A stretch of DNA of 47,260 bases from Myxococcales bacterium. GTDB taxonomy: Bacteria; Myxococcota; Myxococcia; Myxococcales; UBA5297. Below are positions 5,617-46,858 of this stretch, in pieces. Below the pieces are notes generated by a model that made no database searches, had not been told where the DNA came from, and was given only the letters and a program-made list of their open reading frames with translations. The stretch is from positions 1-47,260 of the forward strand of contig JAISIF010000028.1 in the NCBI GenBank assembly GCA_031262165.1. The letters run 5' to 3'. Within the stretch, counting starts at the first letter, position 1. The number at the start of each line of letters is the position of its first letter. Position numbers and translations under genes: made by a program.

Positions 5617-5994
5617 ATGGCTTCCTCTGATTTCGAAGATCTCAAGGCACCGCTCTTCCGACTCTTTGGAAAGGTCGCGGCACCCAGAAACGGCGATGCC
5701 GGGGCGCTGACCTTTCTGATGCAGCCGCTGTGGCGTGAGGCCGTTGGACCGCTCGCCAGCCGGACCGAGCTCAAGACTTTCGCCGCAGGCCTGCTCCGCG
5801 TCGAGGTCGATCCCGCGTTTCTGGGCGACCTGCGGCGGGCAGAGGCAATGGTGCTCTCACGGCTCAACGCCCGGCTCGACGCGCGCTACGCGGTCCGGCG
5901 CATCGAGCTGTTGCCCGCGCCCTCTGGCGCGCCCGACGCGCGGCTCGCCTATGTGCGATCACCCCGAACCCAAGTGCCTCGCCCTCAGGGCTGA
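5617..5994 (+). CDS. DUF721 / DciA-like protein
   Basis: A 125-aa protein of the DUF721 family. Members (DciA) bind the replicative helicase DnaB and help load it where DnaC/DnaI is absent. The core LWREAVGPLASRT...FAAGLLRVEV matches the family pattern W-x-x-x-VG...H/R-T...G-x-L-x-V, followed by LRRAEAMVLSRLN and a basic tail. ATG 5617 was taken; a TTG 24 bases upstream is also in frame and the ribosome binding site is weak. It lies 31 bases before the 3-hydroxybutyryl-CoA dehydrogenase gene and may be cotranscribed. The functional call rests on a short motif, so helicase loading is inferred. Confidence 0.75.
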   Translation: MASSDFEDLKAPLFRLFGKVAAPRNGDAGALTFLMQPLWREAVGPLASRTELKTFAAGLLRVEVDPAFLGDLRRAEAMVLSRLNARLDARYAVRRIELLPAPSGAPDARLAYVRSPRTQVPRPQG

Positions 5995-39211: not shown

Positions 39212-39235
39212 TTCGAGTTGTTCAATGGTGCTTCT

Positions 39236-39375
39236 AAGGACGTATCCCTTCATTATCCCGTCGCCAAAGCTCGTCCGTGAAACGCCAGACCTCGTTGCTT
39301 CGCTCTTCGCTTCCGTCTGGAAGCTCAAAGCCCCGCGCCTCGTCTGACATATTTGAAAGGATTGACGCGGATAAG
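39236..39375 (+). repeat. Dispersed MITE-like repeat, copy 6
   Basis: It starts AAGGACGTATCCCTTCATTA, then ATCCCGTCGCC, GTGAAACGCCAGACCTCG, GCTTCGCTCTTCGCTTCCG and CCGCGCCTCGTC, and ends near GCGGATAAG with a worn right terminus. It marks the left edge of the A/T-rich island. Confidence 0.8.
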
Positions 39376-39502: not shown

Positions 39503-42157
39503 CTACGTTTTGATTTGCTTCTCTTTCCCAGAAATCTCCTTCATCAATTCAAATAAATCATCTGCCGCGCTTCCAGCATCTTTGAGGTGGAATTGACACC
39601 ACAGCTTAGCCCAATCTGGAGTGAATTCATTCTGACGAATCAACTGGGCGAGCACACTCCAATGAGAAACGGGCGCACGCTCGAACCAGGCGCGCGCATT
39701 ATCCGAAGTCTCCTGCGATTTGAGGAGTCGCTCCGCTTCGTTCAGCGCTTTTTCAGGATGAATTCTCCAGATGTGCGCCGCGAATTCATATACCTTCATA
39801 GTATTTGCGGTTCGAAGCGCTTCCAGGATTCCATCGAAAAGGAATTCGTTTTCTTCAATGATTTCTGGCGTCAAAAAGGGAAGAAGTTGTTCCGCTTGAA
39901 AGGCGTCGGAGGCCTGTTTCGGGCTATTCAAAATCCAATCTTGAATCAATCCCAAGCGAGTCTGCGTTGGTAGGAGAGACAATTCCTTGGGATCATTTGT
40001 GCCGATCTCCCAAAGCCCATGATTTTTAGATGTTTGAACAAGTGCTTCCAATGGCAAGGTCTCAAGTATTGTTTGGACGAGCGATCGATGATGAGAGCTG
40101 AGCCATGAGATTCGCCCCGCAACAGTGGACGATTTCGTTTTAGGAGATCCGTCGAGAAGTCTCCAAAATTTCTGAGAAAACTTTCTTTTGAAATCAGTGT
40201 CTTTTCCAGAAAGATTTCTCTTCAAAAACTTATCTGCGGACTTGTTTTGTTGTTCCAAGATATTTTTCGGAAGAGGCCATTCTTTTTCGGATAGAAGGAG
40301 CGCCGGAATGAAGAGAGCAGGGGTGTCATCGACAGATTCCGGCAACTCCAAGTTCGTCATTTTCTCGAGAAGTTGGATGGACAATTCGAAGAGATCATCT
40401 GAATCGATCCACCAATTCCCTGAGCTTGGATAAATTTCGGAGAGCCGCAATTGTTCCAGATTCCATCCTGGGAAGATCCAGCGATAGATTTCTGGGATCT
40501 CCACGCCTTCAGGCTTTTCAGAGTTCAAACTAATTGTCCAACCCATCTTTAGAAAAGCCGAAAGCCGTTTACAACTGCTAACACCCTCCGTCCCCAACAA
40601 GGGAAATTTGAACGGAGTTCCGACTAAAGGGATCCCATAGTTCTCCAAGTTTTCGAAGAATTGATTCCAAGGAATGGCATTCACGAGTTTCTTGGATTTC
40701 ATGGGGTTTTTGGGCCAGCTGTCAGAGTGGTTTCCGATGAAGAAAATCAGTGTTTCGAGCGCTGCAAAGCCCTCCAATGTTTCTGAATCCAGAGAATCAA
40801 AAAATTTCTTCAATTTATCAGGATCGAACTTCAAGAAATGCTCACTCAAAAAATAATCTATCCATTGAGACCTTGAGTGATCAGCGGCCGCCCAGCCCCA
40901 ATCTTTGGCATCGTCAAAATCCAAATCAGGTAATTTCTCTGATTCCTCGGGAGAGAGAATTCCTGCGGAAACCCAACTTGGGAACACCTCGAAGCCCTCT
41001 CCAGCAGATCGAAGCCAGCCCATTTCTTTCAATGAAAAATATCTTTGTGCAGTCTGATCTTTGTTTTCATTTTCACTCTTCAATGAATCAAAGATTTCTT
41101 TGAAGGAAATTTTTTCCCAGCACAGTGCTCTATTTTTAAAAAGCTGAGAAATCGATTTTCGATAAATCTCGAGATCATTTTTCTGAATCATTGTCGAATT
41201 ATGACTGAATTGTGAATTCATCCAATTCACGGCGCGCTCGTAAAGGAAAATCTCTTGCTCGGGATCGCGGTAGAATTCCGCACAGAGAGCGATGAGCTCC
41301 CCCGGCGTGCGCACAAATGGATCGAGATGGCTCTTCTGAATCCATTCAAGAATTCTCTCTTTGACTTCTGAATTCCATTTACCAGGTCTCAAGGAGTTTC
41401 GAATTCGACCATCCATCCATCCAAGGAGGCGTTCTCTCCATTCAGAGATGAGTGATGGTTTTAAGTATGACAATGATTCATCTATGATTGGATTTTTAAA
41501 TGGCGCAAGAATGACGACGTCATTTGAGTGGCTTTTTAGTGTCCGAATTTTGCGTTCGATTTTGAGACTATTTCCGTTCGAAGAATCAATTGAGCAGATG
41601 AATGGGAGCGCATTGGCTGGCGTGCATTCAATGTCTGTCAGGTCTTTAGCGAAACACGCATGGACTTCATTGGAATACCATTTTTGAAGCATTTGAATGG
41701 TCAGCGTCTTTCCTCCGCCAGGGGGAATGCACAGCCAGAGAAAGCTCGACTTTCCGGTCAAATGGTTGGCCACGATTTCGAAAAGTGTCTTCGGGCGCTC
41801 AATACTATTGCTTGAGTGTGGCTTCCAAATTGGCTCAAGTCCATCATTTATAGAAATAGGTGTGAGCTCAGGGAATTCACGAAATTGAATGAGATTGTCG
41901 GGCGGTGAGAGGATTTCGTCTTCGGAGAGTCCGACGAGTTCACAGAGTGTTTTCAAGAAATTTGGATGCGTTCTCCACCAATTGATTCGAGCTGGACTTT
42001 TTTGTTCGATCAATTCTCCAATTTTGATGGCCAGTGATTTTTCATTTGGTTTGTCTTCATCAGTCAATCCGAGTTGCTTTCGGATTTGACGCGCACAGCT
42101 CAAATTTTTTCCTTTGAATTTGGCCTGGACTGCTTTGTCGAGAGATTCATTGCCCAT
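39503..42157 (-). CDS. Large P-loop NTPase-like protein, function unknown
   Basis: An 884-aa soluble protein. Residues 1-90 are helical and end in a HTH-like LKTLCELVGLSEDEIL. A P-loop, CIPPGGGKT (about 143-151), follows a hydrophobic strand; it lacks the usual leading Gly/Ala of GxxxxGKT. A candidate Walker B strand is NDVVILAPF. RTPGELIALCAEFYRD (about 293-308) resembles the boundary between NTPase and winged-helix parts in STAND-type ATPases, and the segment to about 400 looks like a winged helix. The last about 450 residues are Trp/Leu-rich helices like HEAT or similar repeats. Base composition is far A/T-richer than the nearby chromosome. It faces away from two tiny genes across a 255-base gap. 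Domain order suits a STAND-like sensor or defence ATPase, but that is inference. Confidence 0.8.
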   Translation of the reverse strand: MGNESLDKAVQAKFKGKNLSCARQIRKQLGLTDEDKPNEKSLAIKIGELIEQKSPARINWWRTHPNFLKTLCELVGLSEDEILSPPDNLIQFREFPELTPISINDGLEPIWKPHSSNSIERPKTLFEIVANHLTGKSSFLWLCIPPGGGKTLTIQMLQKWYSNEVHACFAKDLTDIECTPANALPFICSIDSSNGNSLKIERKIRTLKSHSNDVVILAPFKNPIIDESLSYLKPSLISEWRERLLGWMDGRIRNSLRPGKWNSEVKERILEWIQKSHLDPFVRTPGELIALCAEFYRDPEQEIFLYERAVNWMNSQFSHNSTMIQKNDLEIYRKSISQLFKNRALCWEKISFKEIFDSLKSENENKDQTAQRYFSLKEMGWLRSAGEGFEVFPSWVSAGILSPEESEKLPDLDFDDAKDWGWAAADHSRSQWIDYFLSEHFLKFDPDKLKKFFDSLDSETLEGFAALETLIFFIGNHSDSWPKNPMKSKKLVNAIPWNQFFENLENYGIPLVGTPFKFPLLGTEGVSSCKRLSAFLKMGWTISLNSEKPEGVEIPEIYRWIFPGWNLEQLRLSEIYPSSGNWWIDSDDLFELSIQLLEKMTNLELPESVDDTPALFIPALLLSEKEWPLPKNILEQQNKSADKFLKRNLSGKDTDFKRKFSQKFWRLLDGSPKTKSSTVAGRISWLSSHHRSLVQTILETLPLEALVQTSKNHGLWEIGTNDPKELSLLPTQTRLGLIQDWILNSPKQASDAFQAEQLLPFLTPEIIEENEFLFDGILEALRTANTMKVYEFAAHIWRIHPEKALNEAERLLKSQETSDNARAWFERAPVSHWSVLAQLIRQNEFTPDWAKLWCQFHLKDAGSAADDLFELMKEISGKEKQIKT

Positions 42158-42219
42158 GATGTTCTCAGGATGGATGGTGTGCCTGCACCAGCACAGAAAT
42201 CTGCTTCAGATGTCCCACA

Positions 42220-42269
42220 TTTATCTACCCGGAGGCTCTCTTAAGTCAAGAAGACTTTAAGTAGATAAA
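42220..42269. promoter_or_regulatory. Nested inverted repeat in the divergent promoter region
   Basis: TTTATCTAC (42220-42228) matches TAGATAAA (42262-42269) as an outer arm, and CTTAAGTC (42240-42247) with GACTTTAAG (42253-42261) forms the inner arm. Related GTAGA pieces continue to about 42293 (CTACGAGTAGACATGTAGA). A protein operator or control hairpin for the large leftward gene or the rightward small genes is plausible; no -10/-35 boxes are clear. Confidence 0.45.
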
Positions 42270-42412
42270 CTTTCTACGAGTAGACATGTAGATTCTTCAG
42301 ACCTGAGGAGCAAGGGATCGCTTGACAGCCACTTTAGGGAGGCTAGACTGGTTTTTCTTCACAGCAGAAAGCTGCAGAGTCTATCAAAATCAACTTCTCA
42401 AGGAGAAATGAG

Positions 42413-42574
42413 ATGTCGAAAAGCGGATCTGGAGGCGGTAAAGGCGCTGGTCAGGGTAGTTCCGGTGGCAAAGGAGGAGGCGGTGGTCGCGGCCAAGGTA
42501 ATGGTGGCGGCTGGCCTTCAGGGACGGGCAATCCTTCGGGCGGTGGTCGCTCGAATGCCCCGCCGTCAAAATGA
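42413..42574 (+). CDS. Tiny glycine-rich protein
   Basis: A 53-aa frame, MSKSGSGGGKGAGQGSSGGK then Gly/Arg/Gln/Asn-rich sequence ending SNAPPSK. AAGGAG lies 7 bases before the ATG at 42413. More than 40% is Gly, with Lys and Arg giving a basic, disordered chain, like RGG-type nucleic-acid-binding tails. Third-base choice differs from a random GC-rich frame (many GGT/GGC). It begins the rightward pair divergent from the 884-aa protein. Function unknown. Confidence 0.65.
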   Translation: MSKSGSGGGKGAGQGSSGGKGGGGGRGQGNGGGWPSGTGNPSGGGRSNAPPSK

Positions 42575-42657
42575 CGGCATTTAACCACGAATCTCGTTCG
42601 TATTGGATTGGGCAGTCCAAAAGAGGTTCTTTATGAATTCATGAAAGGATGAAAAAA

Positions 42658-42795
42658 ATGAATGAAAAGCCGCAAAATCCGAATGATCAACGTGCTGACG
42701 TGAAGAATCCAAACAATCCTGCATTTGAGAAGGATCGTTTGAATCGTGAAAAGGAAGGGCATGGGAATGCGCCCCCGCCCGCACCGAAGAAGTAA
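42658..42795 (+). CDS. Tiny Asn/Pro-rich protein
   Basis: A 45-aa frame starting MNEKPQNPNDQRADVKNPNN, then AFEKDRLNREKEGHG and an Ala/Pro/Lys tail. AAAGGAT is 8 bases before the ATG at 42658; an in-frame ATG at 42649 is possible. NPNNPAF resembles the NPNN-type repeats of small abundant proteins in other proteobacteria, whose roles are unclear. It is 83 bases after the glycine-rich gene and both end at the terminator at 42821. Hydrophilic, no membrane span. Confidence 0.65.
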   Translation: MNEKPQNPNDQRADVKNPNNPAFEKDRLNREKEGHGNAPPPAPKK

Positions 42796-42820
42796 CTCTT
42801 CAAATTCATAGCGTTGAAAG

Positions 42821-42860
42821 AAATCCCTCGGGTCTATCAAAAGGCCCGAGGGATTTTTTA
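42821..42860 (+). terminator. Strong intrinsic terminator after the two tiny genes
   Basis: AATCCCTCGGG pairs with CCCGAGGGATT around a 10-12-base loop, followed by TTTTTT. It closes the small-gene transcript, supporting that these genes are expressed. The 42861-43061 gap to the next gene shows nothing else. Confidence 0.93.
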
Positions 42861-46025: not shown

Positions 46026-46169
46026 GTGAGACCTCCGTCAGATAGAGAAATACCTCGGGGAAGAGAAAGGGCTGCCAAGCGCGGCGGCGCTGTTTCCGCC
46101 AACGGCACGTCAGCGTCAAGACGTCATGACGCCAGGCCAGAGCGGTCGAGCTCTCAGAATCTGTATTCA

Positions 46170-46858
46170 AGCCTTGAACAGCCGTCTCAAGAGGAGCGCG
46201 ATAGACGAGATTTCCACATAGCTCTCCTCGAAAGTCGTCATGATTTTATAATCCTTGGATAATCTTCTATAATTGTTCAGCCATGAAAATGTTCGTTCGA
46301 CACGCCAACGCTTGGGCAGTGTTTCAAATTCATGTTTTATTCGGTCAGATATTTCGACCTTCAATCCTAAACGCTTTGCGGCATTCCCGAATGTTTTCCG
46401 ATAGCCCGCGTCCGTGCAAACACCCAAAAAGATCGGATATTCACTCAATGCCTTTTAAAATACTTCGCCACCCTGCATCGTATCATGGAGATTTGCCGCG
46501 TGAACAAGCACAGCAAATATATTTCTTAATAGATCCGTCACGATGTGTAGCTCTCTGCCCTTTATCTTTTTTTTCATCGAACCCCCGCTCTTCGGCGGGC
46601 CCCAGCGAGAAGGATGGATCGGCTTTTTTTTCGCGCATTTCATGATCAAGTTTGACCAATACCTTCATGAGCCGCGTCCATAATCCAGATTTCTTGGCTC
46701 TTCTGTAAAATGACCAAACCGTTTGATGAGGAAGAAAATCCTTCGGGATCATTCTCCATTGGCAGCCTGCTTTTGTCAGATAGAGCATCGCATTCATTAA
46801 AATTCGCTTGCTCCATCGCTTGCCATTGAGCGTCCGTCAAATCTGTAGAGTAACTCAA
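46170..46858 (-). pseudogene. Decayed IS5-family transposase, copy B
   Basis: Reading leftward in three frames: MSYSTDLTDAQWQAMEQANF, then AMLYLTKAGCQWRMIPKDF and KKSGLWTRLMKVL up to PSFSLGPAEERGF, and LGVCTDAGYRKTFGN with RWRVERTFSWLNNYRRLS and YVEISSIALLLRRLF. The second Asp (CTDAG) and the catalytic Glu (RVERTF) survive. The segment with the first Asp (LIDSQSV in copy A) is deleted, and frameshifts separate the pieces. TTG 46858 is the apparent start. It is not functional, but together with copy A it rebuilds the parent protein. Confidence 0.88.

Follow-up and report, generated by a model that had tools for sequence, protein, structure and literature searches.

The A/T-rich block analysed here carries a member of a real, undescribed family of large Myxococcota proteins with a degenerate STAND-like core, beside which small partner genes recur and differ from branch to branch. 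With a probability of roughly 40%, such a large protein could be an autoregulated sensor in which an HTH-like region is joined to an inactive STAND module and which controls an interchangeable small partner. The window, that is, the whole analysed stretch of 47,260 nucleotides, is a contig of a 3.0-Mb genome that is 96% complete. The initial annotation had placed in this block one large leftward gene and two rightward tiny ORFs sharing one strong terminator, and all of these are present. The features are as follows.

39,234–39,350, no strand: high-copy interspersed repeat of ~117 bp left of the large gene (copy count in the genome)
39,503–42,157, minus strand: large gene, 884 aa (ORF call, homologues, AlphaFold2 secondary structure)
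41,705–41,728, minus strand: codons of the P-loop IPPGGGKT, residues 144–151, atypical and unconserved across the family
42,224–42,292, no strand: five TCTAC/GTAGA half-sites between the divergent genes, a candidate operator not significant in the tests run
42,322–42,349, plus strand: promoter-like TTGACA-16-TAGACT 5' of the tiny genes (consensus match only)
42,413–42,574, plus strand: tiny Gly-rich ORF, 53 aa (ORF call, AAGGAG upstream)
42,658–42,795, plus strand: tiny Asn/Pro-rich gene, 45 aa (ORF call, tiny-family profile)
42,818–42,859, plus strand: terminator hairpin 3' of the tiny genes (inverted repeat)

The large-protein family and its degenerate P-loop

The large protein consists of an HTH-like helical N-terminus (residues 1–85), a degenerate P-loop domain (residues ~125–220), and a helical remainder. 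As first annotated, it belongs to no known family: there were no matches in Pfam, NCBIfam, PADLOC, or PHROGs, and the best E-value among PDB sequences was 1. Profile searches were seeded by a relative from a congener, which is 31% identical to the window protein. This yielded 17 relatives in 15 other genomes, all Myxococcota, which share 15–31% identity with the window protein. The family occurs in 16 of the 195 genomes of the phylum and is scattered within genera. None was found beyond Myxococcota in 384 genomes reaching past the phylum, a search limited to scoring the two best candidates of each genome, so that distant members could be missed. No copy was found in viral contigs, phages, or plasmids.

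The atypical P-loop is present in the window protein, but the working NTPase first proposed is not borne out by the alignment of 18 members. The Walker A Lys is kept in the proteins of the window, of G001 (a same-genus genome matching Myxococcales bacterium UBA1203), and of G088 (C67). Most relatives carry Arg in its place (GSGRT), the L014 protein has Gln in the P-loop (GTGQR), and the motif is lost from the L030 protein. The alignment contains no conserved DD or DE pair as Walker B, and the strands end in variable residues. Because the Lys is kept in only 3 of the 18 members, the NTPase site is degenerate across the family, and most members look catalytically dead.

The fold was approached with two low-confidence AlphaFold2 models from three sequences (pLDDT 57.7 and 50.2). 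Both consist of a helical N-terminal bundle, a core at residues 139–219 with the order beta/P-loop/alpha/beta/beta/alpha/beta, and then helices. Residues 440–884 are modelled as entirely helical, with pLDDT 70–89 in most ten-residue blocks after 640. When the N-terminal model was submitted to Foldseek, almost the whole ranking consisted of AAA+/STAND proteins (RFC, ORC, and the NB-ARC proteins NRC1, NRC4, and Sr35), none of them significant. Clamp loaders, ORC, NB-ARC, and resistosome proteins headed the ranking (best E 2.5e-3, TM ≤0.26). Other weak Foldseek matches of the large protein included Avs4, at rank 3 of a separate ranking (E 4e-2), and NLRC4, NB-ARC, and HEAT-type proteins. A PDB profile search with the P-loop region gave no significant match (best E 0.16–0.18). 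These models and rankings point to a likely AAA+/STAND origin of the core, followed by a helical half, in agreement with the large, mostly helical protein with a STAND-type core that had been annotated. In the N-terminus, the helix pattern of an HTH fits by eye, with pLDDT 64–81 for residues 21–80 of a low-confidence model; Pfam HTH matches had E-values of about 0.1, and no HTH-family match in PDB was significant. A single profile match fell below 0.001, with a chain named 'CAP REPEAT', but only as a sum; none of its stretches was significant by itself.

The large gene is single-copy in the window genome and looks foreign. It has probably been acquired laterally, because the GC content of the block is 42–46% compared with ~66% in core genes elsewhere in the window, and its third-position GC is 0.47 compared with 0.76–0.90 in other genes. 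In G001, G002, and G004, the POT transporter flank was found without the large gene adjoining it, and no clean junction emerged because the opposite flank differs. Of the MITE annotated on the left, a short high-copy repeat remains, which occurs at least 40 times in the window genome and is absent from two congeners; it is graded here as an interspersed repeat. At its right end (46,167–46,858), the window has short leftward ORFs that resemble, by eye, fragments of an IS transposase.

The tiny genes and the other partners

The terminator behind the tiny genes has arms of 18 nt that are 89% complementary, a loop of 6 nt, and a following T run; a generic terminator scan left this hairpin unflagged, and an Rfam scan produced sub-threshold matches only. 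Promoter-consensus matches in the region were as frequent as expected by chance (3 observed, 2.9 expected). The 53-aa ORF, a putative gene, is preceded by a good Shine-Dalgarno sequence and the promoter-like site. No homologue of it was found, and it can no longer be counted as a conserved part of the locus. The second ORF would encode 48 aa from the ATG at 42,649, and Shine-Dalgarno spacing favours the ATG at 42,658, which gives 45 aa.

The 45-aa protein is not an orphan. With an HMM built from 11 tiny proteins, the window excluded, it was detected at E=5.7e-9 among 574 window ORFs, the next best having E=2.1. Judged by this match, it is the product of a real gene of a widespread, uncharacterised family, which is present in 56 of the 195 Myxococcota genomes, usually in one copy. 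The members are hydrophilic, with recurring D-x-R-[SA]-x-x-x-NPNN units. In Myxococcaceae-type genomes, the gene usually occupies a conserved chromosomal place with no large gene beside it; at this position (e.g., L110:6590-6781 and L112:6405-6632), it adjoins a gene for a ~140-aa protein starting MKTVTYERSGRTNTGAQA. Plasmids of Massilia and Acinetobacter encode similar tiny proteins, though the E-values are weak. On the Massilia sp. H6 plasmid NZ_CP103373.1 (L059:2998-5089), the tiny-family gene lies directly upstream of a gene for a 622-aa hypothetical protein, with IS elements around. In G097 (L077:3037-3981, 5758-5937), it lies 1.8 kb from a CD-NTase-like gene, by eye a CBASS-type nucleotidyltransferase. 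No tiny protein was found in phages or viral contigs, and nothing was found in the literature on the NPNNPAY motif or on asparagine-rich small proteins of Myxococcus.

The tiny gene lies beside the large gene in four genomes (the window genome, G001, G088, and G166), and in a ten-genome search with the first profile, the adjoining copy was the only significant one in each of them. It is divergent from the large gene in G001 (starts 241 bp apart), in G088 (186 bp), and in the window, where the 53-aa ORF lies between; in G166, it follows the large gene by 48 bp. At about one copy per 3–12 Mb, this adjacency would hardly recur by chance. Because the tiny family is common and usually sited without the large gene, the tiny gene counts as an associated rather than a dedicated partner.

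Other branches have other neighbours. In one branch, 7 of 11 loci have a DUF4145-type gene divergent from the large gene; identity among the large proteins there is only about 33–55%. The four partner proteins scanned matched DUF4145, a HEPN-superfamily domain (PMC3710099), above the gathering score. The DUF4145 partners may not be RNases, because the HEPN R-X4-6-H motif is missing: GNAxxH is kept in most of them, and the Arg is absent from its canonical place. At two loci from different families, a divergent DUF4258-like gene (E 1e-4 and 2e-3, below the Pfam cut-off) is followed by a B12-radical SAM gene; DUF4258 is a RelE/ParE-superfamily domain (PMC11980606). Because G166 carries DUF4258, radical SAM, and tiny genes together, yet its large protein falls into the half of the tree that contains the DUF4145 branch, and the remaining tiny-linked members lie in the other half, in a tree with long branches, repeated exchange or loss of partners is probable. 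Peptide maturation by radical SAM proteins was rejected as a general mechanism; such a gene adjoins the large gene in no more than three relatives, and the window lacks this adjacency.

The neighbourhood is thus recurrent, as anticipated, in the tiny gene of four genomes, but the neighbour differs by branch, and the fixed three-gene system of the initial annotation finds no support. This variability also fits a reading without any system, in which a laterally acquired orphan regulator happens to lie beside a common gene for a small hydrophilic protein and the partners are coincidental hot-spot insertions. The usual siting of the tiny family elsewhere and the loci without a recognisable partner (L027, L047, L048, L055, and L056) agree with it. 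However, the tiny gene, though roughly single-copy, adjoins the large gene in both halves of the tree, and the DUF4145-type gene has stayed beside large proteins that have diverged widely. Mere coincidence is therefore doubtful.

Promoter repeats and the proposed mechanism

In the DUF4145 branch, two CAATTG palindromes 11 bp apart precede the large gene. With one mismatch allowed per palindrome, ten loci totalling 122 kb contain nine pairs at this spacing, each of them within 130 bp upstream of a large gene, including large-gene loci without DUF4145. Other promoters carry repeats of their own: three GCATGCATA-like units at 11-bp spacing in L030 and two CATTTCGAAG units at 10-bp spacing in L013, neither arrangement being matched in 500 shuffles. 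The best repeat of G001 has a p-value of about 0.03, but it is sited in the ribosome-binding region. In the window promoter, neither a tandem dyad (p 0.70) nor the TCTAC/GTAGA cluster reached significance.

The paired repeats look like operators of a regulator that binds to one face of the DNA. The HTH-like N-terminus, together with repeats that accompany the gene, leads us to infer that the large protein itself is this regulator, and the window member may work like that of the clear-operator branch. In the preferred reading of an autoregulated sensor, the large protein would bind the tandem dyads in its own promoter through its N-terminal region and keep both itself and the neighbouring small gene at a low level. 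The helical half probably senses a trigger, upon which the large protein would release or activate the partner. The degenerate AAA+/STAND domain would be unable to work as a normal NTPase in most members. The partner slot would be filled according to branch, with the tiny protein in the window and with DUF4145 or DUF4258 plus B12-radical SAM proteins elsewhere. It is unlikely, though conceivable, that the locus is a modular switch for conflict or stress. Interchangeable small effectors, Asn/Pro-rich and probably disordered tiny proteins among them, would then be under the control of one family of inactive-STAND HTH proteins.

Comparison with known systems

The locus might instead encode an active STAND anti-phage sensor, whose helical half recognises a phage component, whose ATP-driven oligomerisation triggers the response, and whose tiny proteins are effector or antitoxin. 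The Foldseek ranking with Avs4, NB-ARC, and NLRC4, the P-loop Lys kept in the window member, and a patchy distribution and low GC that suggest lateral transfer are compatible with such a role. Like Avs sensors, the large protein combines a P-loop with a helical C-half; unlike them, it has no recognised effector domain, and the P-loop is lost in its relatives. PADLOC found no families for the window protein or for ten scanned relatives. The neighbourhood of the window locus showed no defence gene, so that the defence-island setting once proposed finds no support, and phages and plasmids yielded no copy of the large gene. Together with the P-loop Lys lost from 15 of the 18 family members and the missing Walker B pair, these results make an anti-phage sensor quite improbable.

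Predicted conflict systems of multicellular bacteria include inactive STAND proteins, and there is precedent both for such modules and for their combination with HEPN effectors (PMC7159879, PMC8195603). In the MoxR-vWA ternary systems described by Kaur et al. (2020, PMC7159879), the third component can be an iSTAND protein, and the FtsH subset includes a radical SAM protein by which a peptide effector is likely modified. The large protein would be such a third component and the tiny peptide the radical SAM substrate if the gene row of G001 were representative, where Pfam matches give the order tiny gene, large gene, B12-radical SAM, 507-aa protein, MoxR, and vWA. The row lies at L005:10362-18507 and L153:298-3755, and its MoxR is RavA-like. 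This is very unlikely, since no MoxR homologue was found in the window genome, no MoxR or vWA was recognised near the window locus among the part of the window ORFs scanned against Pfam, in G088, G097, and G186 MoxR does not adjoin the family gene, and BLAST detects no similarity between the radical SAM protein of G001 and its counterparts in G166 and G186. The locus is reminiscent of these systems in G001 alone, by analogy of gene order. With iSTAND and iSTAND2 (Kaur et al. 2020, PMC7159879; 2021, PMC8195603), the family shares eroded NTPase motifs in a STAND-like module, an added N-terminal domain, and an occurrence in multicellular bacteria. It differs in that adjacent MoxR-vWA genes are absent except in G001, that the N-terminus is HTH-like instead of Death-like or EAD, and that the large protein has no Pfam match.

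The autoregulated sensor also resembles HTH-controlled toxin-antitoxin modules (RelE/YiaG type; HEPN/MNT), in which DUF4258 and DUF4145 partners next to an HTH-like protein and tandem dyads in the promoter would find their counterparts. Here, however, the controlling protein has about 900 aa, the partners are divergent, and the HEPN catalytic motif was not found. MalT-type STAND regulators combine a DNA-binding region, a P-loop domain, and helical repeats in one chain, with the HTH at the C-terminus. The large protein would have the same three parts in one chain, and nearby genes are likely controlled in both cases, whereas its P-loop is degenerate, its HTH-like region is N-terminal, and no sequence match connects the two. 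The family is best seen as an undescribed one that joins a degenerate STAND-like core to interchangeable small partners and, in one branch, to promoter repeats, with a function that is predicted only.
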